From an uncultured Bacteroidaceae bacterium (GTDB lineage: Bacteria; Bacteroidota; Bacteroidia; Bacteroidales; Bacteroidaceae), in the NCBI GenBank assembly GCA_905235575.1, contig CAJOLZ010000003.1, forward strand, positions 1 to 64,000: a stretch of DNA of 64,000 bases, in the 5' to 3' direction. The translations under genes and the position numbers were made by a program. Position 1 is the stretch's first letter, and the number at the start of each line of letters is the position of its first letter. Of this stretch, positions 4,158 through 60,998 are shown piece by piece. Under the pieces are notes generated by a model that was given only the letters and a program-made list of their open reading frames with translations, had not been told where the DNA came from and did not search any database.

Positions 4158-4192
4158 GTACATTGTAAAATAGCCAAACAACTTCATTTATT

Positions 4193-4272
4193 CGCACCGT
4201 GGTGCGACGGGCGTCGCAGCGTGCTGCGCAGGCTGTCGCAACGTGGTGCGACATGCGTAGGACTGCGGTGCG
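4193..4272. repeat. 22-bp dyad repeat array R1 (4 units)
   Basis: Four units start at 4193, 4215, 4237 and 4259, exactly 22 bp apart. The cores are CGCACCGTGGTGCG, CGCAGCGTGCTGCG, CGCAACGTGGTGCG and the degenerate AGGACTGCGGTGCG. The 8-nt spacers are ACGGGCGT, CAGGCTGT and ACATGCGT. The array lies in a divergent intergenic region, so it cannot be the terminator of either neighbour. Confidence 0.9.
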
Positions 4273-7192: not shown

Positions 7193-8730
7193 AAGTCCTG
7201 AGCGCATGCCTGCAAGGTCTGCAGGCCACCCCTGTAACCATCGAGGTGAACTCCACCCGAGGCATACGTTTCGTTCTCGTAGGCCTGCCCGACAGTGCCG
7301 TCAAGGAGAGCCACGAGCGCATCATGGCTGCCATCGAGAACAGTGGATACCCCTTCCCCACACGTGCCATCACCATCAACCTTGCACCTGCCGACATACG
7401 CAAGGAGGGCTCGGGCTTCGACCTCCCACTTGCCATCGGCATACTGGCCACCGAAAACCATATCAACACGCAACTCCTCTCGCGCTACATGATGGTGGGC
7501 GAACTCAGCCTGGACGGCTCCGTCATGCCCATCAAGGGCGCACTGCCCATTGCCATCAAGGCACGCGAAATGGGATTCGAAGGACTCTTCGTACCTGAAC
7601 AGAACGTGCGCGAAGCAGCTGTGGTGAATAATCTCAACGTCTACGGTGTGCGTCATTTCAATCAGGTGGTAGGACACCTCAACGGCATGGAGATTCTGGA
7701 GCCGACACACGTCGACACACGCGCCGAATTCTATGCACAGCAGGCCACTTTCGACTTCGATTTCTCGGACGTGAAGGGACAGGAACAGGTGAAACGCGCG
7801 CTCGAGATAGCTGCCGCCGGAGGACACAATCTGATTATGATCGGTCCGCCGGGAAGCGGAAAGAGCATGTTGGCCAAACGTCTGCCCGGCATCATGCCGC
7901 CGCTCACGCTGCAGGAGAGTCTCGAGACCACACAGATACACTCCGTGGCAGGCAATCTGCCGGCCGGATGCTCGCTCATCGCCCATCGCCCCTTCCGTGC
8001 GCCGCACCACACCATCTCTCCCGTGGCCCTCGTGGGCGGCGGTCAGAACGCACAACCCGGCGAGATAAGTCTGGCACACAACGGCGTGCTTTTTCTGGAC
8101 GAGCTGCCCGAATTTCCCCGACAGGTGCTCGAAGTGATGCGCCAACCGCTCGAAGACCGGCAAATCAACATTTCGCGCGCAAAATACAGCATCAACTACC
8201 CCGCCTCGTTCATGTTCGTGGCTTCCATGAATCCCTGCCCCTGCGGCTATTTCGGAGACCCCACCCACCACTGCGTATGCACGCCGGGACAGGTGAGCCG
8301 ATACCTTTCGAAAATCAGCGGTCCCCTGCTCGACCGCATCGACATCCACTGCGAGATACAGGCCGTGCCCTTCGCACAGCTCTCCCAGATGCAGCCCGGC
8401 GAACCATCGACAGCCATCCGCGAACGCGTCATACGGGCACGCAAGATACAAGAGGAGCGGTTCCGCAAGCATAAAGGCATCCACTGCAACGCGCAGATGA
8501 CCGAGAAGATGCTTCACCAGTTTGCCGAGCCCGACGCGAAGAGCCTCGAAATGCTCCGCTCGGCCATGGAGCGCCTCTCACTCTCGGCCCGCGCATACAG
8601 CCGCATTCTGAAGGTGGCACGCACCATCGCCGACCTTGCCGGCAGCGAGCAGGTGGAAAGCACACACATCGCCGAAGCCATCGGATACCGCAGCCTCGAC
8701 CGCGGAGATTGGGCTGAGCGAGGGGGATAA
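7183..8730 (+). CDS. comM: YifB/ComM-family Mg-chelatase-like AAA+ ATPase
   Basis: The true start is the ATG at 7183 (MLVKVLSACLQGLQATPVTIEV), giving 515 residues. The track ORF start at 6784 lies inside the previous gene. The N-terminal Lon-substrate-like domain (about 1-170, with GLPDSAVKESHERI) is followed by an AAA+ module. This module has Walker A GPPGSGKS (about 221-228), Walker B LFLDELPEF (about 303) and the diagnostic NPCPCGY motif. In naturally competent bacteria ComM is a branch-migration helicase helping to integrate transformed DNA; YifB homologues are also common in species not known to be competent. It overlaps the preceding gene by 10 nt, and a strong terminator follows. Confidence 0.93.
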   Translation: MLVKVLSACLQGLQATPVTIEVNSTRGIRFVLVGLPDSAVKESHERIMAAIENSGYPFPTRAITINLAPADIRKEGSGFDLPLAIGILATENHINTQLLSRYMMVGELSLDGSVMPIKGALPIAIKAREMGFEGLFVPEQNVREAAVVNNLNVYGVRHFNQVVGHLNGMEILEPTHVDTRAEFYAQQATFDFDFSDVKGQEQVKRALEIAAAGGHNLIMIGPPGSGKSMLAKRLPGIMPPLTLQESLETTQIHSVAGNLPAGCSLIAHRPFRAPHHTISPVALVGGGQNAQPGEISLAHNGVLFLDELPEFPRQVLEVMRQPLEDRQINISRAKYSINYPASFMFVASMNPCPCGYFGDPTHHCVCTPGQVSRYLSKISGPLLDRIDIHCEIQAVPFAQLSQMQPGEPSTAIRERVIRARKIQEERFRKHKGIHCNAQMTEKMLHQFAEPDAKSLEMLRSAMERLSLSARAYSRILKVARTIADLAGSEQVESTHIAEAIGYRSLDRGDWAERGG

Positions 8731-8786
8731 AGTCCTCCGTATCCAGAGAGCAAACCCTGCTTCTGGACTGACAATGGGTTTAACAT

Positions 8787-8816
8787 AAAGCACGCCGCAA
8801 AACGCAGCGTGCTTTT
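8787..8816 (+). terminator. Intrinsic terminator after comM
   Basis: AAGCACGC and GCGTGCTT arms with an 11-nt loop are followed by TTTTTT. The hairpin also carries A residues on its left side, so it may work for cysS on the opposite strand. Confidence 0.85.
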
Positions 8817-8824
8817 TTGATAAA

Positions 8825-8882
8825 CGCACCGTGGTGCGACGGGCGTCGCAGCACGGTGCGTTGCCTGTCGCACCACGGTGCG
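8825..8882. repeat. 22-bp dyad repeat array R2 (3 units)
   Basis: The units start at 8825, 8847 and 8869 with cores CGCACCGTGGTGCG, CGCAGCACGGTGCG and CGCACCACGGTGCG, and spacers ACGGGCGT and TTGCCTGT. The array sits in the convergent gap between comM and cysS, right after a separate conventional terminator and 11 nt from the cysS stop. Confidence 0.9.
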
Positions 8883-8893
8883 TCAGAGAGCGT

Positions 8894-10393
8894 TTACTTG
8901 TTCAGCGTCCAAGCGAACCCTTCCTTGGTGTCTTTCACCTCAAAACCGAGGGCTGCCAGTTGGTCGCGTATCTTGTCAGAGAGTGCCCAGTTTTTCTCGG
9001 CCTTGGCCTGCTGGCGCTGCTCGAGGAGCATATCCACTACGGCACCGAAGGCCTCCTCGCGTGCCTTGTTGCTTGTACCGCTCTCTTCGGCCAGGCCCAG
9101 TATGTCGAAGGCAAAGGTGTGGAAGACGTCGATAAACGCCTGCGCCACCTCGGCGGTGATGCTGGCCTTTTTGTCGGTGAGGGTGTTGATGAGACGGCAT
9201 GCGTCGAAGAGGTTGCTGATGACGATGGGCGAATTGAGGTCGTCGTTCATGGCCTCGTAGCATTTCTCGCGGAGCTGGTCCACCTCGCGCATCTCCACCT
9301 GAGGCTGCCCCTTCACTTTCTGTCCTTCGGAGAGGCGTTTCAGACTCTTCCATCCCTCCAGAAGTCGCTGCAGACCTTTCTCGGCGGCCTGCAGTGCATC
9401 GTTGCCGAAATCGACGGTGGAGCGGTAGTGGGCCTGCAGGATGAAGAAGCGGATGGTCATGGGCGAGTAGGGCTGGGTGAGTTTCTCGTGGTCGCCGCTG
9501 AAGAACTGGGGCAGGGTGATGAAGTTGTTGTACGACTTGCCCATCTTCTTACCCTCGATGGTTATCATGTTGTTGTGCATCCAGTAGCGCACCATCTGCT
9601 TGCCCTGCGCAGCCACGGCCTGTGCAATCTCACACTCGTGGTGAGGGAAGATGAGGTCCATGCCGCCGCCGTGGATGTCGAACTGGGAGCCGAGGTATTT
9701 GCGTCCCATGGCCGTACACTCGCAGTGCCATCCGGGGAAGCCTTCGCTCCACGGGCTGGGCCAGCGCATGATGTGCTCGGGCTGTGCTTTCTTCCACAGA
9801 GCGAAGTCGGCCTGACGACGTTTCTCACCCACTCCGTCCAGTTCGCGCGAGGCATCTTTCACCTCCTCCAGGTTGCGCCCCGAGAGGATGCCGTAGTGGT
9901 GGTCCTTGTCGTATGTCTCCACATCGAAATAGACCGAACCGTTGCTCACGTAGGCGTAGCCGCTGTCGAGTATCTCCTGTACGAGCTGCTGCTGTTCGAT
10001 GATATGTCCGGTGGCATGTGGCTCGATGCTGGGCGGCAGACAGTTGAGGGCCGACATGGCTTCGTGGAAGCGGTTGGTGTAGTATTGGGCCACTTCCATG
10101 GGCTCCAGCTGCTCCAGACGCGCTTTCTTGGCTATCTTGTCCTCACCCTCGTCGGCATCGTGTTCCAGATGGCCCACGTCGGTGATGTTTCGCACGTAGC
10201 GCACCTTGTAGCCGATGTGCTGCAGGTAGCGGAAGAGGAGGTCGAACGTGATGGCGGGACGGGCATGACCCAGATGAGCGTCACCATAGACGGTGGGACC
10301 GCATACATACATGCCCACTCTGCCCTCGTGCAAGGGACGGAAGAGTTCCTTGCGGCGTGTGAGCGTGTTATAGATAAAAAGCACTTGTTCCAT
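8894..10393 (-). CDS. cysS: Cysteine--tRNA ligase
   Basis: This 499-residue class I aminoacyl-tRNA synthetase attaches cysteine to tRNA-Cys in the cytoplasm. The N-terminus shows the zinc/HIGH region [24 protein letters not shown] (HLGH form of HIGH). GWHCECTAM supplies further zinc ligands and [12 protein letters not shown] is the KMSKS-type loop (KMGKS). The C-terminal helical anticodon-binding region is complete ([17 protein letters not shown]). Length is normal. It is a single gene, convergent with comM, with a -7 element (TAATTTTG) about 23 nt upstream of the ATG. Confidence 0.97.
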
Positions 10394-10415
10394 AATACTT
10401 AAAGATTTACGACCG

Positions 10416-10423
10416 CAAAATTA
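10416..10423 (-). promoter_or_regulatory. -7 element (TAATTTTG) of cysS
   Basis: The minus strand reads TAATTTTG, matching TAnnTTTG, 23 nt from the cysS ATG. No good -33 TTTG is seen at the usual spacing. Confidence 0.5.
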
Positions 10424-10494
10424 CATAAAATATCACAAACAGCCGCGCACTTGCAGCCACATTTGCACCGAATGTAACATAAATTGGGTATGTG

Positions 10495-10520
10495 AACCCG
10501 AATCGAAATGAACGATTAGG
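10495..10520. repeat. Dispersed AACCCGAAT...ATTAG motif, copy B
   Basis: GAACCCGAATCGAAATGAAC is followed by GATTAGGGG. It is preceded by ATTGGGT, so the ACCCGAAT part again sits in an inverted repeat. The rest of this gap (10424-10531) shows no gene. Confidence 0.4.
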
Positions 10521-10531
10521 GGAAAACGAAA

Positions 10532-10565
10532 GAAGCCCGTCGGCACACGATGCCGGCGGGCTTCT
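10532..10565 (-). terminator. Terminator of the giant surface protein gene
   Basis: AGAAGCCCGTCGGCA and TGCCGGCGGGCTTCT form a long hairpin with loop CACGA. On the minus strand it is followed by TTTCGTTTTCC. It lies about 40 nt after the stop at 10604. Confidence 0.85.
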
Positions 10566-10603
10566 GCATATTCATCTCCCCTGTAGGGGAAAAGGGGATT
10601 TAC

Positions 10604-13600
10604 TTACTTAACAAGCACTTTCTTGCCGTTGATGATGTTCACACCCTTCTGGGCCTTCTCAACACGTACACCACCGATGGTGTAGATGGTGTTGTCGCCA
10701 TCAACCTCAACATTCTTGATGCCCACTTCCTTGTTCTGACCAACGATGAAGTTGGCAGCGCTGTTGGAAGGAGTAACGGTGATGTTGTCGGTCTCGGAGA
10801 GCAGGCCAGGCACTACGTAACGTCTCAGAGCGCTGGCGTTATTTCCGGTCGACCTGGATGTGGTCCAGATGTTGTTAGCATAGTCGAATGCAAGACCGGT
10901 GATCTGGCTCTCGGGAGTGCTGAAGTTTGCACGACCCTGCAGCGTGATCAGACCGAAGTCGTTGGGCGTATAGTCAACCTTGTAGATGGTCACGGTGTTG
11001 TTGCCAGTGGGTATTGCAATCCAAGAGCCGTCAGCCGAGATGGCCATACCTGCAGCAGGCTGTGCACGGTTCGTGTTGCTGTAGTCCACGACGCCCTCGC
11101 TGTTGAAGTGCTTCAGAGCGGGCTCATCTTCGTTCGGGTTGCTGCGATACTGGATGTACCAGAGACCACCCTGACGGTCGGTAACCACGTTCACGGGACC
11201 AGGAGCAACAGTCCAATGAGTGGAGTCGAGAGGCTCGTAAACGCTGCTGGGAACAGTGTTCCATGCGGTCTTGGTGCCCAGATTGAAGGTGTGAGCGTAG
11301 TAGTGCTCAACATCCTCGCCTGCGAAGCCAACAGCATCGGTCGAGAGGGTATAGAGCTTCAGGTTGTCACCTGCGCCCTCTACGTCGAAGGAAACTACCA
11401 TACCAATCTGCATGTCGTCGCCAATATAGGTAACGCCGTCCTCCTCGTTGAGTGTACCGCCGGTGAAGACGGGAGTCCAAGGAGCATTCAGGTCTTCGAG
11501 GTTAGCCTCAACAATCGGACTGTTGGTGTTGCCACCCATGCGGCCGATGAAGAGACGTCCGTCCTCGCTGATGCGGATGGCCTTAGGCTCGAGGCCAGCC
11601 CATTCCTCGGTGCTGAGCGGGCTTGCAGAATTGAAGGTCAAGCCACCGGTGAAGCCGGCAATGCCGTCGGAAGCGGTGATAATCTCGTTCTGCGGAGTGA
11701 AGGCATAAACACCCTCGTTGCCCTCGCGCTCGTCGGAGACGAAGCCGTAATTATCGGGATGAGCAGCAGACTCAGATACGAATGCCGTACCGAAGGTGCT
11801 CGACTCGGGCAGGTTGTTGATGGCGATGCCGTAAGGAGCATAGAAGCTCTGAGCTTCGCCCACCGTAGCGTTCTGGAGTACGCCAATCGACTCGACAGAT
11901 ACCTTGAAGGTAATCTCGGTGCCTGCCTCGCCCAGCTTGCTGTTCTCCACATTCACGCTGTGGTCACCCTGTACCAGCTGGTCGCCTGCCAGTTCCTCGG
12001 TGTAGACGAGTGTCTCGCCTGCATAGAAGTCAATCTTGGCAGCCTTGGCCGGAGAGTTCAGCGTGTAGAGAATAGTTGCCTGGTTCTCGTCGGAAGCGCT
12101 CTTCACGTCGTATGCGTACGAGTTGAGCTCGATGACGGGAACGTCGTTGGAGTATTCACCACCATAGTAATATACGGTGCCACCGTTGAAGAGGCGAGGC
12201 AGTGAGTCGGTACCCAGCGTCTGGAACCATACGGGGTTCTCGCTGCTGTTGCCGTTCAGGGCATAGGTCATCTGACCGGTCAGAGCGATGTCGTCGGTGA
12301 TTTGAGTACCCTGCTTACCATTCTTCGTGTAGTTGCCGGAAGTGGTGGTGTCATCGTTACGATAGAAGTAGTGGTCTTCGTTGTCGATACCGGTAACCTC
12401 TGCTGTTGCCCAGGTGTTCTTGATGGTAGCCTTCGAGCCGCCGGTCCATCCGGAGATGGCAGCACTCTCACGTCCACCGATTATGACACCAGAAACATAG
12501 CAGTTCGAGATGTTATACGTTGAGTTGTTGCTCTTGTTACATCCGATGATACCAGCTGCGTTCTGCTCGCTACCCCTGATGGTTGCCTCAACACCTACTT
12601 GTTCGATGTTCACGGTAACCTCGGAGTCTGTACCGCCGACAAGTCCTACGAAGGCCGCACCGGAGATGGTACATGTCTTGTCGAGGATGAAGTTCTTGAT
12701 GGTACAGTTACCAACCTGTCCGAACAGGCCGGTAAAGTCACCACCCTCAATAGAGAGGTTGCTGATGGTATGTCCCTGTCCGTCGAATGTACCTGCATAA
12801 CGATGACTGGGATCACCGATGCTGTTGAATGCGATGTCGGACATGTCAATGTCGTTGAGAAGATTAGCGCTTGCCGAAACATCCGTAGTTCTTACATACG
12901 TACCGAAGAATACCATGTGGTATCTATCCTTGATCTGGAATACACCGTTCTCGTCCTGCTCGGGGAAGAACTCCATGTAGGGAGCCAGAGCTTCTGCGTT
13001 CAGAGCCTCCTCGGTGCTGTAATTACCATCGGTGTAGGCATCCCATACATCGTAGTAAGCCGATTCCACGCCATCAATCTGGTCTGCGTCCAGAAGGTCA
13101 CGAACCTGGTCAACCAATGCATAGAGTGTCTCGGCCTTGTCAAGCATGCTGATGTATGCATGTTTGTTGTCGTAAACCTCTTCGAAGAGCTGAGATATCT
13201 TACCGATGATCTCCAGTTTCTCTGCGTTGTCGGTAGCCTGTTCTGCCTGCTGAGAGAGGTCAGCCAGCTGAGCACGGAGTTCGTTGCTGAAGTTAGGATA
13301 GGTCTTGTAGGATGTATCGAAGGTAGGCTCATACTCGAGCAGTGTATTGATACGATCCACCTGACCGTTCAGCACGAGGTCAAGTCCGTCAGCCACAGGT
13401 TCGTCGTCAATCTCGCCCAGATAGAAGAGTTTGGCGTTGGCAAAGCCCGTCCAGTCGTTGCTGGAGTAGCTGTAGCGGTTCTTGACACCTACGGTAAGTG
13501 TACCGTCGGTCACCTCCACAGCGACGTAGTTCTTTGCACGGTCGGCTGCTGCTGCGATGGCGATGGAGAGAATACCCTGAGGAATGAAGGCAATGGTGTC

Positions 13601-17853: not shown

Positions 17854-17933
17854 CACAGCACGTTGCACAGGAAAACGCAACACGGTGCGACAGCCGTCGC
17901 AGCACGGTGCGTTTCTGTCTGAAGCACGTTCCT
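17854..17933. repeat. 22-bp dyad repeat array R3 (3 units plus decayed fourth)
   Basis: The units start at 17854 (CACAGCACGTTGCA, degenerate), 17876 (CGCAACACGGTGCG) and 17898 (CGCAGCACGGTGCG), with a decayed TGAAGCACGTTCCT at 17920. The spacers are CAGGAAAA, ACAGCCGT and TTTCTGTC. The array lies in the 850-bp divergent gap between the giant gene and cysE. That gap also holds two promoters, an AT-rich stretch (17575-17700) and motif copy C; I see no gene in it. Confidence 0.85.
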
Positions 17934-18162
17934 TGCGAAATTTCGGGGCAGCAGCAAGGAAAACGAAGAAAAATCGATTGTTGAAAATCAAGCGGTTACA
18001 ATCCCATCATTTCGCACACCTCACCACGTCGCAGCCAAGCACATCCATTCTCACACTTGCTCACACACCTTTTCGGCGCCCCCTGCCGTACCACGAGTGG
18101 CCGCGCATGACTATTCCATGACACTCACATCGTCAAGAGCGCGATGCATATCTGGATGAATT

Positions 18163-25554: not shown

Positions 25555-25593
25555 CGAAGGCTGTTTCATGTGCTGCCGAAAAGAGGTTTTCAA

Positions 25594-25673
25594 CGCACCG
25601 TGGTGCGACAGGCAACGCAACGTGCTGCGACAGCCTTCGCAACGTGGTGCGACAGACGACGCAACGCAGTGCT
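25594..25673. repeat. 22-bp dyad repeat array R4 (4 units)
   Basis: The units start at 25594, 25616, 25638 and 25660 with cores CGCACCGTGGTGCG, CGCAACGTGCTGCG, CGCAACGTGGTGCG and CGCAACGCAGTGCT. The spacers ACAGGCAA, ACAGCCTT and ACAGACGA share one orientation. The array lies between two co-directional genes. Confidence 0.9.
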
Positions 25674-29989: not shown

Positions 29990-30077
29990 CACCGTGTGGT
30001 GCGTGACTTGACGCACCGTGTTGCGACAGCCATCGCAACGTGGTGCGCAGCCCGTCGCAGCATGGTGCGACAGACGA
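29990..30077. repeat. 22-bp dyad repeat array R5 (4 units)
   Basis: The units start at 29990 (CACCGTGTGGTGCG, degenerate), 30012 (CGCACCGTGTTGCG), 30034 (CGCAACGTGGTGCG) and 30056 (CGCAGCATGGTGCG). The spacers are TGACTTGA, ACAGCCAT, CAGCCCGT and a trailing ACAGACGA. The array lies in a convergent gap between the deacetylase and MBOAT genes. Confidence 0.88.
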
Positions 30078-35437: not shown

Positions 35438-35517
35438 CACACCGTGCTTTTCGGGATGTCGCACCACGGTGCGAAGGCCGACGCACCACGTTGCGACAGG
35501 CGTCGCAGCACGGTGCG
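35438..35517. repeat. 22-bp dyad repeat array R6 (3 units plus decayed first)
   Basis: The clear units start at 35460 (CGCACCACGGTGCG), 35482 (CGCACCACGTTGCG) and 35504 (CGCAGCACGGTGCG), with spacers AAGGCCGA and ACAGGCGT. A decayed CACACCGTGCTTTT stands at 35438, again 22 bp away. The gap 35154-35728 is divergent (hup left, rhomboid right) and otherwise holds only the two promoters and A/G-rich sequence. Confidence 0.88.
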
Positions 35518-41391: not shown

Positions 41392-41463
41392 CAATCGCTT
41401 CGCACTCCCCTGCCCCATGAAACTCAGCACAGTTCAGGCAGACTGATTCGTCGGGCAGAGAAA

Positions 41464-41543
41464 AGCACTGCGGTGCATCGCAAAACGCACCACGGTGCAT
41501 CGGTCTGCGCACCACGGTGCGTTGGCTGTCGCAGCGTGGTGCG
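41464..41543. repeat. 22-bp dyad repeat array R7 (4 units)
   Basis: The units start at 41464 (AGCACTGCGGTGCA), 41486 (CGCACCACGGTGCA), 41508 (CGCACCACGGTGCG) and 41530 (CGCAGCGTGGTGCG). The spacers are TCGCAAAA, TCGGTCTG and TTGGCTGT. Read on the minus strand the spacers match the ACAG-type of other arrays, so this array is inverted. The last unit is followed by T7 and could terminate the SecB-like gene. It lies in a convergent gap. Confidence 0.9.
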
Positions 41544-41570
41544 TTTTTTTGCATTCTGCAGCTGAGTTAT

Positions 41571-42920: not shown

Positions 42921-43000
42921 CGCAACGTGGTGCGACAGCTGTCGCAGCGTGGTGCGAAGCCCGTCGCAACGTGGTGCGTCGGGCGTCAAAGCGTGGTGCA
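42921..43000. repeat. 22-bp dyad repeat array R8 (4 units), overlapping the nagB 3' end
   Basis: The units start at 42921 (CGCAACGTGGTGCG), 42943 (CGCAGCGTGGTGCG), 42965 (CGCAACGTGGTGCG) and 42987 (CAAAGCGTGGTGCA). The spacers are ACAGCTGT, AAGCCCGT and TCGGGCGT. The last unit encodes the C-terminal CTTL of nagB and part of its stop codon. On the minus strand the distal unit is followed by TTTTT, so it may terminate transcription from nagB. Confidence 0.9.
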
Positions 43001-52912: not shown

Positions 52913-53008
52913 CGACAGCGAACAGATTCTTAGGGTGTAAGATTCGCTTTTTCTTGTTGAATTATTGTCAAAAGGCTTCTTTACGCCCTTTCTACACCCT
53001 GTTTCGGT

Positions 53009-55162
53009 CTACCAGATGTCCTCAGGCGTCTCAGGATTGTCATAGACTTCCTTAGAGGCATACTCGAGGAAATCCATGTAGAGATAGCGCGTCGGGTCGT
53101 CCATCACAGACTTGAAGCGGATGTAGTATGTCTCGTCGGGATCCATCGTCTGGCGGAACAGAATGCGGCGGGTACTGATGGTACTCTTGCGGTTGTCATA
53201 CAGAAGCGGGCCCTTCATGAAACCGTTGTTGCGCAGATGCTTGTCAACCTCGGAATCGTAGTCTTCGTCGCCGGTATCTGCTTCCCAACCATAATCATAT
53301 TCTTTGTCTCCTCCGGAGCCATTGTACATAATTTTGTTGCACACTAAACGCAGGTCGAGGGGGATACCCATAACGGCCAGATGGTCCTTATCGCTGCCCC
53401 AGTAGAACTGGACGATGCCTCGTGTACCACCACCGCTCTGCACCTGATAGCGGAGTTCATAGGTACCACGTTTTGGCACGGGCGGCAGGGTGAACGTAAC
53501 GTCCGAGAATCCACGGATGGTGAACTCGTCGCCCTGATAGTTTTCCCACGTCTTGGTCATGGCGGTCCAATAGAAGAACTGTGTATCCTCGCTTATGTCC
53601 ACCTCGCTGAGGTAGGGGTAAACGATATCGGAAGGAATCCATACATTTGTATGCGCCTCGTCGAGCAGCGGGCACATGCGGATGTCGTTGTTGATAAACT
53701 CGGGCATCATAGCTGCCACGTTCCAACGAATACGACCTTTCTGCAGGTTGCTGCGTGTATCTTCGTCGTAAACCAGGAGTTTGTCGATGGGGTATACGAT
53801 GGCATTGCGGAGGCTGTTTTCGCCTTCCATATTCGGGGCGCCGATGAAGATACCCACCTTGTCGGGGTCGCAACTTAGCTCATGATAGTCTCCGCTGCGT
53901 CCGTTGTTGAGGTTCGGGAAACGGTTCAGGAAGATGCCGTTACTCTCCTTACTTTCATAAATTTTAATCAAGCGGCGCTTACCCATCGTCGTGAAGAATT
54001 CACTCATGGCCACACCCAGCGTCTGGTTCTTTACGTAGCCCTTCTCGTTGCGGTGCATCACCAGACGGTCCGGGGCCAGTCGTTCGGGCAGAAGATGATA
54101 GGTGACGAAATGGTAGAGCAGGTTGTTTTCCTTGGTATAGTTGTCGTCATCCACTGCATCGGGATAGACGTTCAGACCGCGGACATAGCTCAACACGTCC
54201 TCAAGCGAGATTTCGTCGGCTGGTTTTCCAATCCATCCTTCCCACAGGCTGTCGGGCTCGGCAAAGAGTGTATAGCCATAGTAGCGGTGTTCAGGAGTAT
54301 GGAAGACTCTCTCGTCCGAATTACCTACGGACTCAATCTTGACGGGTATCTCTCCTCGCTGGTACTTGTCTTCGTAGGCATAGTCCATGTAGAGTCTCAA
54401 CGAGTCCACAAGCCCAGTAGCCTTCAGCATCTTAGCCATGACAGCAAAGCCTCTGCGGTTCTCACTGATGATGTCGTCGATCCACTGGCCCAGCGTATTG
54501 TTGCCGGGGGCAACCACGCGGGTCATCTGATGTATGATTCCGTTGAGCAGCAGGATGTCGTAGTTACGCGTGTCTATGGGAGCCTCGTTAATCGAGTACT
54601 GCTGCAATTCGGTATTCAGGTGGACCGTGAGACGACGGTCATACATGTTGGGGCGTGGAATATCGGCATCCTGAACGACGGGGAAGTCGTATGTACCGTA
54701 ACTTGCCTCGTCGCCGCTGTCGATGATACTGTTGTAGACAATCACTTTCTCGATGGAGTCACGCACGGTCTCGTTGGGGAATCCGTCCCAGGTAGGTTCG
54801 AGAAGGATGCCCTTGCGCCAGAGGGTATCCAGATAGAACTGAATGGCCTCGTTCGTAGGAGCGAATACGGTGTAGTTTCCGCGCGCAGACATCAGCTGGC
54901 TCACGGTGGAAGTGCTCAGACGGCTTACGGGGATGGCCTGGAGCAACGTACAATATTCGCTGTACTCCTCGTGCCGCTGCAGGTAGTCCCACACGGTGGA
55001 GGTGGTGAACACGTAACGTGCCGATTTGTCAACTTCCTCCTGACAGCCCGTCATAGGCAACAGGAGCAGAACGGAAAGAATGACGCCGAGGATTCCCTTG
55101 GGCGTGCCAAAGAAACGGCCACAAAGAGTCTGTTTCTTGCTGTTTTGGTTTAAGGTATGCAT
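53009..55162 (-). CDS. Fasciclin (FAS1)-domain lipoprotein, copy 1
   Basis: The 717-residue lipoprotein has lipobox LPMTGC at about residue 40, after an unusually long basic N-terminus. A FAS1-type region begins near residue 50 (TVWDYLQRHEEYSEYCTLLQAI...LMSARGNYTVFAPTNEAIQFYL), with a second FAS1-like part (about 270-450). The C-terminal beta-rich region contains YELRYQVQSGGGTRGIVQFYW, resembling a carbohydrate-binding domain. It is exported and probably surface-anchored, likely for adhesion or glycan binding. It is a tandem duplicate of the gene at 55503, with identical length and most residues the same by eye. The promoter lies at the same distance in both copies. Confidence 0.85.
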   Translation of the reverse strand: MHTLNQNSKKQTLCGRFFGTPKGILGVILSVLLLLPMTGCQEEVDKSARYVFTTSTVWDYLQRHEEYSEYCTLLQAIPVSRLSTSTVSQLMSARGNYTVFAPTNEAIQFYLDTLWRKGILLEPTWDGFPNETVRDSIEKVIVYNSIIDSGDEASYGTYDFPVVQDADIPRPNMYDRRLTVHLNTELQQYSINEAPIDTRNYDILLLNGIIHQMTRVVAPGNNTLGQWIDDIISENRRGFAVMAKMLKATGLVDSLRLYMDYAYEDKYQRGEIPVKIESVGNSDERVFHTPEHRYYGYTLFAEPDSLWEGWIGKPADEISLEDVLSYVRGLNVYPDAVDDDNYTKENNLLYHFVTYHLLPERLAPDRLVMHRNEKGYVKNQTLGVAMSEFFTTMGKRRLIKIYESKESNGIFLNRFPNLNNGRSGDYHELSCDPDKVGIFIGAPNMEGENSLRNAIVYPIDKLLVYDEDTRSNLQKGRIRWNVAAMMPEFINNDIRMCPLLDEAHTNVWIPSDIVYPYLSEVDISEDTQFFYWTAMTKTWENYQGDEFTIRGFSDVTFTLPPVPKRGTYELRYQVQSGGGTRGIVQFYWGSDKDHLAVMGIPLDLRLVCNKIMYNGSGGDKEYDYGWEADTGDEDYDSEVDKHLRNNGFMKGPLLYDNRKSTISTRRILFRQTMDPDETYYIRFKSVMDDPTRYLYMDFLEYASKEVYDNPETPEDIW

Positions 55163-55195
55163 AGTTGTGTTGTTATTTTTATATCTTTTTCAATG

Positions 55196-55226
55196 CAAAA
55201 CTATAAAAAAACATATATAGAACAAA
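55196..55226 (-). promoter_or_regulatory. Promoter of fasciclin copy 1
   Basis: On the minus strand TTTG (55226-55223), 19 bp, then TAGTTTTG (55203-55196), 34 nt before the ATG. Confidence 0.7.
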
Positions 55227-55282
55227 AAAAAGAAGGAGGAATTTTTCCTTATATCGTATAATAATGCATTAAAAAAGTAAAA

Positions 55283-55362
55283 AACACCATGCTGCGACAT
55301 GAAACGCACCATGCTGCGACAGCCTACGCAACGTGGTGCGCAGGCTGTCGCAACGTGGTGCG
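55283..55362. repeat. 22-bp dyad repeat array R9 (4 units)
   Basis: The units start at 55283 (AACACCATGCTGCG), 55305 (CGCACCATGCTGCG), 55327 and 55349 (both CGCAACGTGGTGCG). The spacers are ACATGAAA, ACAGCCTA and CAGGCTGT. The last two spacers are near reverse complements, so units 2-4 form a long inverted repeat. Downstream of fasciclin copy 2 the left end runs into T-rich sequence on the minus strand. It is the duplicate partner of R10, offset by 2495 bp. Confidence 0.9.
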
Positions 55363-55413
55363 TCGAACGGACGTCTTTCTGTCTATCTTTTTCTTCGGCA
55401 AGGGAGGGATAAA

Positions 55414-55473
55414 GCGCAACACCTTGTGCGTTTTCACCTTTGCGCTCACAGCTCCCGTATTTCAGAGAACCTC
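55414..55473 (+). other. Decayed copy of the tRNA-Arg promoter and 5' end
   Basis: GCGCAACACCTTGTGC, CACCTTTG (55435-55442) and GCTCCCGTATTTCAG...AGAAC (55451-55470) line up with the hairpin, the TACCTTTG promoter and the GCCCCTGTAGTTCA...AGAAC start of tRNA-Arg about 2.5 kb to the right. The resemblance of the promoter part is clear. The tRNA part is weaker and needs an internal gap. Confidence 0.35.
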
Positions 55474-55502
55474 TCAGCGCCCTTCTTGCGTCTTGTTTCG
55501 GT

Positions 55503-57656
55503 CTACCAGATATCCTCGGGCGTCTCAGGATTGTCATAAACTTCCTTAGAGGCATACTCGAGGAAATCCATGTAGAGATAGCGCGTCGGGTCGTCCATCA
55601 CGGACTTGAAGCGGATGTAGTATGTCTCGTCGGGATCCATCGTCTGGCGGAACAGGATACGGCGGGTACTGATGGTACTCTTGCGGTTGTCATACTGAAG
55701 CGGGCCCTTCATGTACCCATTGTTGCGCAGACGCTTGTCAACTTCGGAATCGTAGTCTTCGTCGCCGGTATCTTCTTCCCAACCATAATCATATTCCTTG
55801 TCTCCGGTGACATCGTAGATAAGTTTGTTGCACACTACGCGCAGGTCGAGAGGAATACCCATAACGGCCAGATGTTCCTTATCACTGCCCCAGTAGAACT
55901 GGACGATGCCTCGTGTACCACCACCGCTCTGCACCTGATAGCGGAGCTCGTAGGTGCCACGCTTGGGCACGGGCGGCAGGGTGAACGTAACGTCCGAGTA
56001 TCCACGGATGGTGAACTCGTCGCCCAGATAATTCTCCCACGTCCTCGTCATGCCTGTCCAGTAGCAGAACTGTGTATCCTCAGATACGTCCACACCGCTG
56101 AGGTAGGGGTAAACGGCATCGGAAGGAATCCATACATTTGTATGCGCCTCGTCGAGCAGCGGGCACATGCGGATGTCGTTGTTTATGAACTCGGGCATCA
56201 TTGCTGTCACGTCCCAGCGGATACGGCTCTTCTGCAGGTTGTTGCGTGTATCTTCGTCGTAAACCAGGAGCTTGTCAATGGGGTATACGACCGCATTGCG
56301 GAGGCTGTTGTCGCCTTCCATATTCGGGGTGCCGATAAGGATACCCACCTTGTCGGGGTCGCAACTTATCTCATGGTAGTCTCCTTTGCGCCCGTTGTTG
56401 AGGTTCGGGAAGCGGTTCAGGTAGATACCATTGCTCTCACTGCTTTCATATATTTTAAGCAAACGGCGCTTACCCATCGTGGCGTAGTATTCGCTCATGG
56501 GCACGCCCAGCTGCACGTTCTTTACGTAGCCCTTCTCGTTGCGGTGCATCACCAGACGGTCCGGGGCCAGTCGTTCGGGCAGAAGATGATAGGTGACGAA
56601 ACGGTAGAGCAGGTTGTTCTCCTTGGTATAGTCGTCGTCATCCACGGCATCGGGATAGACATTCAGACCGCGGACATAGCTTGCCACATCTTCAAGGGTT
56701 ATATCTTCGGCTGGCTTTCCAATCCATCCCTCCCACAGACTGTCGGGCTCGGCAAAGAGCGTGTAGCCATAGTAGCGGTGTTCGGGGGTATGGAAGGTCT
56801 TCAGTGCCGCGTCGGTGCCCTTACCTACAAATTTGATGGGAATCTCGCCACGCTGGTACTTGTCTTCGTAAACGTAATCCATGTAGAGTCTCAACGAATC
56901 CACAAGCCCAGTGGCTTTCAGCATCTTAGCCATGACGGAAAAACCTCTGCGGCGCTCGCTGATGATGGTCTCAATCCACTGGCCCAGCGTATTGTTGCTG
57001 GGGGCAACCACGCGGGTCATCTGATGTATGATTCCGTTGAGCAGCAGGATGTCATAGTTGCGTGAGTCTATGGGAGCCTCGTTTATCGAGAACTCCTGCG
57101 ATTCGGAGTCCAGGTGGACCGTGAGACGGCGGTCATACATGTTGGGGCGTGGGATTTCGGCATCTTGTACGATGGGGAAATCGTAGGTACCGTAACTCAT
57201 CTCGTCGCCGCTGTCGATGATACTGTTGTAGACGATTACTTTCTCGATGGAGTCACGCACGGTCTCGTTGGGGAATCCGTCCCAGCTGGGTTCGAGAATG
57301 ACGCCCTTGCGCCAGAGGGTATCCAGATAGAACTGAATGGCCTCGTTCGTGGGAGCGAAGACGGTGTAGTTTCCGCGCGCAGACATCAGCTGGCTCACGG
57401 TGGAAGTGCTCACAGGGCTTACGGGGATGGTCTGCAGCAACGAGCAATACTTACTATACTCCTCGTGCCGCTGCAGGTAGTCCCACACGGTGGAGGTGGT
57501 GAACACGTAACGTGCCGATTTATCAACTTCCTCCTGACAGCCCGTCATAGGCAACAGAAGCAGAATGGAAAGAATGGCACCGAAGATTCCCTTGGCCATT
57601 CTGAAAAGGCGGCCACGAAAGGCCTGTTTTTTGGTGTTTAGATTTAAGGTATTCAT
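55503..57656 (-). CDS. Fasciclin (FAS1)-domain lipoprotein, copy 2
   Basis: The 717-residue lipoprotein (lipobox LPMTGC) has the same domain order as copy 1: basic N-terminus, FAS1 region with YTVFAPTNEAIQFYL, a second FAS1-like part, and a C-terminal beta-rich domain ending YLYMDFLEYASKEVYDNPETPEDIW, identical to copy 1. Differences cluster in the middle (for example KFVGKGTDAALKTFHTPEH against KIESVGNSDERVFHTPEH). Both copies are intact, so both may be used, perhaps with different ligands. Each copy is followed by similar non-coding sequence and preceded by a repeat array. Confidence 0.85.
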   Translation of the reverse strand: MNTLNLNTKKQAFRGRLFRMAKGIFGAILSILLLLPMTGCQEEVDKSARYVFTTSTVWDYLQRHEEYSKYCSLLQTIPVSPVSTSTVSQLMSARGNYTVFAPTNEAIQFYLDTLWRKGVILEPSWDGFPNETVRDSIEKVIVYNSIIDSGDEMSYGTYDFPIVQDAEIPRPNMYDRRLTVHLDSESQEFSINEAPIDSRNYDILLLNGIIHQMTRVVAPSNNTLGQWIETIISERRRGFSVMAKMLKATGLVDSLRLYMDYVYEDKYQRGEIPIKFVGKGTDAALKTFHTPEHRYYGYTLFAEPDSLWEGWIGKPAEDITLEDVASYVRGLNVYPDAVDDDDYTKENNLLYRFVTYHLLPERLAPDRLVMHRNEKGYVKNVQLGVPMSEYYATMGKRRLLKIYESSESNGIYLNRFPNLNNGRKGDYHEISCDPDKVGILIGTPNMEGDNSLRNAVVYPIDKLLVYDEDTRNNLQKSRIRWDVTAMMPEFINNDIRMCPLLDEAHTNVWIPSDAVYPYLSGVDVSEDTQFCYWTGMTRTWENYLGDEFTIRGYSDVTFTLPPVPKRGTYELRYQVQSGGGTRGIVQFYWGSDKEHLAVMGIPLDLRVVCNKLIYDVTGDKEYDYGWEEDTGDEDYDSEVDKRLRNNGYMKGPLQYDNRKSTISTRRILFRQTMDPDETYYIRFKSVMDDPTRYLYMDFLEYASKEVYDNPETPEDIW

Positions 57657-57689
57657 TGTATTGTTGGCCTATTTATCTCTTTCTCTTCA

Positions 57690-57721
57690 CAAATATATAA
57701 AAAATGTATGGCTGAGGCAAA
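57690..57721 (-). promoter_or_regulatory. Promoter of fasciclin copy 2
   Basis: On the minus strand TTTG (57721-57718), 20 bp, then TATATTTG (57697-57690), 34 nt before the ATG, the same distance as in copy 1. Confidence 0.75.
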
Positions 57722-57777
57722 TTAAGAAGCATAGTTTTCTACCATATCGCAGGATAGTGCATCGTATTCGGCATAGG

Positions 57778-57857
57778 AGCACCGTGCTGCGACAGAAAAC
57801 GCACCGTGCTGCGACAGCCTACGCAACGTGCTGCGACGGTCGTCGCACCGTGGTGCG
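57778..57857. repeat. 22-bp dyad repeat array R10 (4 units)
   Basis: The units start at 57778 (AGCACCGTGCTGCG), 57800 (CGCACCGTGCTGCG), 57822 (CGCAACGTGCTGCG) and 57844 (CGCACCGTGGTGCG). The spacers are ACAGAAAA, ACAGCCTA and ACGGTCGT. It lies in a divergent gap between fasciclin copy 2 and tRNA-Arg. A further hairpin GCGCAA-CACC-TTGCGC with T5/A5 flanks follows at about 57909-57931. Confidence 0.9.
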
Positions 57858-57919
57858 TCAAACGGACATCTTGCCCTCCATCAAGTTTTTTTCGACAAAG
57901 AAGGAAAAAGCGCAACACC

Positions 57920-57952
57920 TTGCGCGTTTTTCGTCAAAAATGAGTACCTTTG
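57920..57952 (+). promoter_or_regulatory. Promoter of tRNA-Arg and probably korAB
   Basis: TTG (57920-57922), 22 bp, then TACCTTTG (57945-57952), 14 nt before the tRNA. The -33 part overlaps the GCGCAA/TTGCGC hairpin. Confidence 0.65.
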
Positions 57953-57965
57953 CACTCAAAATAGG

Positions 57966-58037
57966 GCCCCTGTAGTTCAATGGATAGAACTACGGTTTCC
58001 TAAACCGTCAATCCGGGTTCGATTCCCGGCGGGGGTA
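57966..58037 (+). tRNA. tRNA-Arg (anticodon CCT)
   Basis: A full cloverleaf can be drawn. The acceptor GCCCCTG pairs with CGGGGGT, the D stem is GTTC/GAAC, and the anticodon stem ACGGT/ACCGT encloses loop TTCCTAA (anticodon CCT). The T arm is CCGGG-TTCGATT-CCCGG, with discriminator A. CCA is not encoded. It is 25 nt upstream of korA and may be processed from a common transcript. Confidence 0.95.
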
Positions 58038-58062
58038 CAACTAAAAAGAAAAGAGAAAAATC

Positions 58063-59914: not shown

Positions 59915-60922
59915 ATGGCACAGTATACATTCCAAGACTTCAAGAAAGGTCAGCCCCGCTGGTGCCCGGGCTGCGGCGATCACTTCTTCCTGAACAGCCT
60001 GCACAAGGCAATGGCCGAGATTGGCATCGCTCCACACGAGACAGCCGTCATCAGCGGCATCGGGTGTAGCAGCCGACTGCCCCACTACATGGCAACATAC
60101 GGCATGAACACCATCCACGGACGTGCAGCCGCCATTGCCACCGGATGCAAGGTGGCCAACCCACGGCTGACCGTATGGCAGGTGAGCGGCGACGGCGACG
60201 GACTGGCCATCGGCGGCAACCACTTCATACATGCCAACCGCAGGAACATAGACCTGAACATGATTCTGCTGAACAACCGCATATACGGACTGACGAAGGG
60301 CCAGTACAGCCCCACCAGCCCACGCGGCTTTGTCTCGAAGAGCAGCCCCTACGGAACAGTGGAAGACCCCTTCCGCCCCGCTGAACTGTGCTTCGGTGCA
60401 CGCGGACACTTCTTCGCACGTGCCGTGGCAACGGACGCGCAGGGAACCATCGACATTCTGAAGGCTGCACAGCAGCACAAGGGTGCCAGCGTGTGCGAGA
60501 TTCTGCAGAACTGCGTCATCTTCAACAACGGAACACACGACAGCGTTTACTCGAAAGAGGGACGCGCCAAGAACGCCATCTACGTGCGCCACGGACAGCC
60601 CCTGGTCTTCGGCGAGAACAAAGAGTACGGACTGGTGCAGGAGGGTTTCGGCCTGAAGGTAGTGGAAATCGGCAAGGACGGAGTGACGATTGACGACATC
60701 CTGGTGCACGACGCACACTGCGAGGACAACACACTGCAACTGAAACTGGCGCTGATGGGCGACGGCGACGGATTCCCCATCGCACTGGGCGTGATACGCG
60801 ACGTGGAGGCACCCACCTACAACGATGCCGTGGAGGCGCAGATTGAGGAGGTGAAGGCTAAGAAAGCCTACCACACGTTTGCCGAACTGCTCGAGACGAA
60901 CGACATCTGGGAAGTGAAGTAA
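59915..60922 (+). CDS. korB: 2-oxoacid:ferredoxin oxidoreductase, beta subunit
   Basis: The 335-residue TPP-binding subunit has WCPGCGDH and GIGCSSR (Fe-S cluster cysteines) and the TPP/Mg motif GDGDGLAIGGNHFIHANRRNIDLNMILLNN. There is no separate ferredoxin-like subunit, consistent with two-subunit Kor enzymes. The complex acts in the cytoplasm. The stop codon TAA at 60920-60922 lies within the first, degenerate unit of repeat array R11. Confidence 0.96.
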   Translation: MAQYTFQDFKKGQPRWCPGCGDHFFLNSLHKAMAEIGIAPHETAVISGIGCSSRLPHYMATYGMNTIHGRAAAIATGCKVANPRLTVWQVSGDGDGLAIGGNHFIHANRRNIDLNMILLNNRIYGLTKGQYSPTSPRGFVSKSSPYGTVEDPFRPAELCFGARGHFFARAVATDAQGTIDILKAAQQHKGASVCEILQNCVIFNNGTHDSVYSKEGRAKNAIYVRHGQPLVFGENKEYGLVQEGFGLKVVEIGKDGVTIDDILVHDAHCEDNTLQLKLALMGDGDGFPIALGVIRDVEAPTYNDAVEAQIEEVKAKKAYHTFAELLETNDIWEVK

Positions 60923-60998
60923 CCACGGTGCGACATCCAACGCACCACGTTGCGAAGCCCGACGCACCACAGTGCGACACCCGTCGCAGCGTGGTGCG
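60919..60998. repeat. 22-bp dyad repeat array R11 (4 units), overlapping the korB stop
   Basis: The units start at 60919 (GTAACCACGGTGCG), 60941 (CGCACCACGTTGCG), 60963 (CGCACCACAGTGCG) and 60985 (CGCAGCGTGGTGCG). The spacers are ACATCCAA, AAGCCCGA and ACACCCGT. The last unit is followed by TTTTT. The array lies in a convergent gap that also holds a separate conventional terminator. Confidence 0.9.

Follow-up and report, generated by a model that had tools for sequence, protein, structure and literature searches.

A tandem lipoprotein gene duplication that includes one of the many 22-bp-phased intergenic dyad arrays of an uncultured Bacteroidaceae bacterium

The described elements closest to the arrays analyzed in this study are BrickBuilt of Porphyromonas gingivalis, a minisatellite inside a MITE with a 23-nt unit and about 19 copies (PMC4596501), the REP/BIME elements and REPINs with RAYT (PMC3733652, PMC3116915, PMC2817692), and the DNA uptake sequences (DUS) of Neisseriaceae (PMC3630211). 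BrickBuilt is likewise found in Bacteroidales and has a short tandem unit with a leader and a tail, dispersed between genes, and the largest class of composite repeats described below has the same plan. In contrast, the unit considered here is a 22-bp dyad plus spacer repeated two to four times, the arrays number about 430 rather than about 19, most of them have no leader or tail, and the dyad family changes between species. As in the REP/BIME systems, the arrays comprise hundreds of short, high-copy extragenic palindromes, located mostly downstream of genes and forming species-specific families. They differ in their rigid 22-bp phase, in the lack of compensatory pairing, and in the absence of a Y1_Tnp/RAYT match from their genome, which is 88% complete; most congeners also have none over the cut-off. 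The DUS share with our dyads the species dialects and a copy number of about 1,000, but they do not form palindrome arrays. A search of the open-licence literature gave no match to these arrays; dyad arrays present by the hundreds, evenly spaced and in rigid phase, with species-level sequence turnover and apparently without RAYT, are undescribed there.

The window, that is, the whole stretch of 64,000 nucleotides that was analyzed, contains two adjacent genes encoding fasciclin-like lipoproteins of 717 aa each, copy 1 at 53009-55162 and copy 2 at 55503-57656, both on the minus strand. A sequence-only reading of this locus had proposed a tandem duplication of the gene together with its repeat array, and this is borne out, the unit of about 2,494 bp comprising the gene, its promoter, and a four-unit 22-bp array. 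The offset between the two open reading frames, given there as about 2495 bp, is 2,494 bp, and the equal gene lengths and the equal distances of promoter and array from the start codon are confirmed as well. A single candidate promoter per copy, at 55196-55226 (TTTG-N19-TAGTTTTG) and 57690-57721 (TTTG-N20-TATATTTG) on the minus strand, ends 33 nt upstream of the ATG in each copy; both are consensus matches only, scored against the -33/-7 type TTTG-N19/20-TAnnTTTG. The arrays lie 120 nt and 121 nt from the ATG in the two copies.

According to the blastn ends and the alignment, copy 1 of the unit (52984-55435, minus strand) consists of about 25 nt of 3' flank, the gene, the promoter, the array R9, and a decayed relic of a tRNA-side promoter, and copy 2 (55478-57950, minus strand) keeps the original tRNA-side flank. 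Thus, at one end the homology reaches 25 nt beyond the stop codon, and at the other it reaches the -7 box in the promoter of the neighboring tRNA-Arg (CCT) gene (57966-58038, plus strand), which is the original neighbor of copy 2 and the sole match in an Rfam search. The region 57892-57950 (plus strand) contains a hairpin, GCGCAACACCTTGCGC, followed by T5 and the -7 box TACCTTTG. The intact tRNA-Arg promoter stays with copy 2, the -7 box being at 57945, and its duplicate at copy 1 (approximately 55397-55435) is broken, having lost 14 nt and a TA so that CACCTTTG remains. The array R9, beside this relic, still has four units in phase.

Copy 1 has the lipobox ..LPMTGC, and both products score above the Pfam gathering cut-off of 22 bits for the fasciclin domain PF02469 (29.7 and 32.2 bits), although only a short stretch is aligned; a search of NCBIfam with the lipoprotein sequences gave no match. 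The copies are 87% identical at the amino acid level, with dN of 0.064 and dS of 0.29 and with differences of 7, 5, and 17% at codon positions 1, 2, and 3, respectively, which indicates purifying selection on both. There is no sign of gene conversion between them (for the longest stretch without synonymous change, p=0.22). Since neither the same genome nor the 60 relatives searched contain another full-length match with more than 61% identity, the duplication is private to the lineage, as far as sampled. The named relatives identified by protein comparison are MAGs of uncultured Bacteroidales from rumen or goat gut. In all these respects, namely adjacent direct copies, their identity, purifying selection, and no sign of conversion, this is an ordinary bacterial tandem gene duplication, and nothing sets it apart except the array inside the duplicated unit.

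R9 and R10, the array of copy 2, are members of a genome-wide family. The dyad pattern has 1,000 matches in the 2.49-Mb genome compared with 11-12 for the reversed control, which excludes chance, and 146 arrays in 827 kb, these two among them, lead to an estimate of about 430 for the whole genome. Each array consists of two to four quasi-palindromic 14-bp dyads with the center C-AC-G, often with outward T-runs. The oriented core is CGCACCACGNTGCG; as it occurs in both orientations, the center reads AC or GT and is hardly ever palindromic. Of 286 steps between successive dyads, 285 are exactly 22 bp. When weak edge units are included, 93 arrays comprise four units and 44 comprise three, where the former number is an upper bound, because what looks like a fourth unit in the class A arrays introduced below may in fact be where the tail begins.

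Only two of the 146 arrays overlap called genes. Arrays occupy 32 of the 42 convergent gaps that measure 100 bp or more, 65 of 139 co-directional gaps, and 30 of 70 divergent gaps, these counts being approximate, as the genes were called by a simple script. In co-directional gaps, the upstream stop is the closer gene end for 60 of 68 arrays, and all 128 array-to-start distances are 60 nt or more. Further, the arrays are spaced more evenly than by chance: the coefficient of variation of the spacing is 0.54 versus 0.82 ± 0.07 under a class-stratified null model that chooses randomly among gaps of the same class (0/2,000). Other arrays of this family in the window lie in divergent gene pairs (4192-4253 and 35460-35517), in convergent pairs (8825-8882, 30012-30073, and 41461-41545), and at 25591-25666, 42921-42999, and 60922-60998, the last of which separates a 2-oxoacid:ferredoxin oxidoreductase beta-type gene (59915-60922), at its 3' end, from a gene convergent with it.

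We give a probability of about one half to the reading that the arrays are a REP- or MITE-like class of intergenic elements with a fixed 22-bp phase, bound as a duplex by a putative dimeric protein, and that one of them was carried along in the gene duplication. The 2.49-kb segment, from the lipoprotein gene through the intergenic region to the tRNA-Arg promoter, was duplicated in tandem in this lineage with the array as a probable passenger, the latter being one copy of a genome-wide, species-private, and non-coding element whose copies may spread within the genome as small composite repeats. The 22-bp phase would be kept by the dimeric protein contacting the same face of the duplex at intervals of two turns, and this putative binder could be either the mobilizer of the elements or a marker of transcription-unit boundaries. 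A spreading new dyad family could occupy old boundary sites, so that the sites persist while the sequences change, and such persistence with a change of family is seen at a few orthologous sites.

About 18% of the arrays reside inside a dispersed composite repeat of about 330 bp, and with the arrays masked, 55 of 146 (about 38%) have an anchored homologous flank in common with another array; hence the flanks lend no support to a mobile origin of the rest. In the largest class, class A, the composite is built from three units between a leader of about 58 bp and a tail of 213 bp. Its representative in the window has the array at 17854-17911 and the tail, which ends with AATCTTCCGATTTCnnnACA, at 17912-18123 (plus strand). 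Class A tails have 27 good matches in 827 kb, every one adjoining an array; the sampled relatives have no such match. The ends of this composite are defined (..TTACA and ..ACA), and no convincing terminal inverted repeats were observed. The conserved leader and tail are found with the 27 arrays that bear tails; most of the 146 lack them, as do R9 and R10, which are outside this class. For one class A pair located 4.9 kb apart (C1:79377 and C1:84258; L057 and L058), the tail-side flanks are homologous (92%). A second class comprises 20 arrays with a common flanking sequence that resembles a strong promoter (AAATAAGTTTTGCTTTTTCCTCGCTTATTCGTATCTTTGCAG), some 70-120 bp away from the edge of the array; these are located on contigs C1, C2, C5, and others of the same genome.

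A search of the genus in 139 genomes, each from a different species, gave 249 copies of the exact two-unit pattern in its own genome and none in the 138 congeners. In samples of 16 congeners, the repeat signal is concentrated at the 22-bp lag and the other lags are nearly empty; 11 of the 16 have at least one 22-bp array at a stricter threshold, and most have 22-bp arrays of their own with another sequence. For instance, the unit is AACTTAACACGTTAAGTT in two of these species (G012 and G024) and CGCCGCACGCGG in two others (G026 and G075). The symmetry of the dyads is genuine: arm pairing of at least 0.8 is observed in 24% of arrays versus 1% of column-shuffled controls, and the centers of such arrays are mostly AC or GT. 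Among samples from other families of the order, none had arrays at the 22-bp lag and two had them at 23.

The partly syntenic genomes G026 and G075, compared in part, share two sites occupied by the same family, one pair differing by exactly one 22-bp unit. Three other orthologous sites are occupied by different families, for example, by a GTACATGTAC-type array versus a AACTTAACACGTTAA array; these gaps are located in L195, L203, and L204 versus L128-L130. Among 154 conserved gaps of the sampled genomes, a small table in which the pairs are not independent, an array is present in both members in 4 cases versus 0.9 expected (p~0.005), and the same test at other lags gave one match at most. These observations allow for a broader reading, which we put forward tentatively: the arrays may be genus-wide boundary elements set by geometry, that is, 22-bp dyad arrays mostly with the C-AC-G center, whose sequences are replaced wholesale between species, sometimes at orthologous sites, the replacement being driven by a putative fast-evolving DNA-binding protein or mobilizer. 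The arrays would then offer a natural system for studying the joint change of a DNA-binding protein and its many sites, and would also address whether bacteria mark transcription-unit boundaries by geometry instead of sequence.

It seems rather improbable that the arrays are purely selfish minisatellite-bearing MITEs, as BrickBuilt of P. gingivalis, with no host function, even though the composite plan of leader, units, and tail and the species-private families agree with this explanation, as do the G026 and G075 arrays, which match dozens of places with identical ends. The even spacing, the avoidance of gene starts, and the persistence of sites despite a change of family point to something beyond chance survival, although purifying selection against harmful insertions could explain much of all three.

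Similarly doubtful is the view that the arrays function at the RNA level, either terminating transcription in both directions or insulating transcription units at their ends. Termination stays alive as a rival because of the outward T-runs, which occur at 32-62% of array edges versus 10% in the background and are commoner on the sense side in co-directional gaps; the proximity of arrays to 3' ends, their presence in convergent gaps, and the mean fold z of -3.6 point in the same direction. Below korB, an ordinary terminator is found in some relatives and an array in others, with arrays in only 4 of 21 species, an observation that says little by itself. However, the T-runs are equally frequent in divergent gaps, where terminators are not needed, and hairpins need no exact 22-bp phase. 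Further, dyad positions 5 and 10 and the adjacent spacers are less complementary than shuffled sequences, and no compensatory changes keeping the stem pairing are seen. Thus selection on a hairpin or RNA is disfavored, and the pairing data argue for recognition of the duplex, as in the preferred reading with a putative dimeric protein.

The duplicated locus itself provides one comparison of two arrays and is a small part of the case. R9 occupies 55283-55362, with gene-sense units 1-4 at 55349-55362, 55327-55340, 55305-55318, and 55283-55296, and R10 occupies 57778-57857, with dyads at 57844-57857, 57822-57835, 57800-57813, and 57778-57791. Both have retained four units and the 22-bp period, as the sequence-only reading stated; the stable copy number that it saw holds for this pair but not for the orthologous pair that differs by one unit. 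Its claim that cores and spacers had diverged is clearly true of the spacers (6 of 24 positions, 25%) and only slightly so of the dyads (5 of 56, 9%). The flanks differ at 76 of 212 positions (22 of 93 on the tRNA side and 54 of 119 between array and ATG), so the dyads have not diverged at the rate of the flanks (p=4e-5), and to this extent the view of the locus as an internal evolutionary experiment stands. At the same time, a comparison of two arrays carries little weight, and the array is not specific to this gene. The dyads are not significantly slower than the spacers (p=0.08) or the third codon positions (p=0.135); therefore, the pair by itself supports constraint on the array only weakly, and selection on the arrays rests on the genome-wide evidence. 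Two of the dyad differences affect positions 5 and 10, where the sequence is free to vary across the genome, and two more are alike, AC in R10 being AT in R9 at the centers of units 3 and 4. Since AT centers are rare elsewhere, R9 has the appearance of a slightly degraded copy. A flank that R9 and R10 seemed to have in common with C4:82021 turned out to be nothing more than the conserved 3' end of the gene.

The slower dyads, together with the constant array-to-ATG distance, could also be expected if arrays were operators regulating the gene next to them, in this case the lipoprotein gene, and had been copied with the rest of its control region, but we consider this very unlikely. The constant distance follows from the duplication itself. 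Moreover, none of the four lipoprotein paralogs in the same genome has an array upstream, and arrays in general avoid starts, occupy convergent ends, are mostly nearer to the 3' end in co-directional gaps, and occur in hundreds of unrelated contexts. An independent tandem pair of the same lipoprotein family in the genome G032 (L002/L094-L095, G032:C139:19593-24133), whose copies are also 87% identical, has no array between the copies. The implied link of the array to the fasciclin gene is therefore not upheld. The array-less paralogs suggest that the array was a passenger of the duplication, and we count the array-less pair in G032 as support for this.

Least credible of all, the dyads could be self-recognition sequences, for example, DUS with species dialects, which would be in line with about 1,000 copies, with dialects resembling those of Neisseriaceae, and with the even spacing of arrays, but the dyads are nearly absent from coding regions and we know of no counterpart of rigid 22-bp palindrome arrays among DUS.

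Finally, tandem arrays with other periods were encountered. In a genome from a different family of the order (G054, L147), two arrays with the 23-bp period (CTCACAAGTTTGTCAGTTTTCAC) are located at 8231-8298 and 9647-9736. In one congener (G031, L098), the region 8716-13119 contains longer tandem arrays with a period of 38-42 bp, one of them with a CGCAGCGTGCTGCG dyad.
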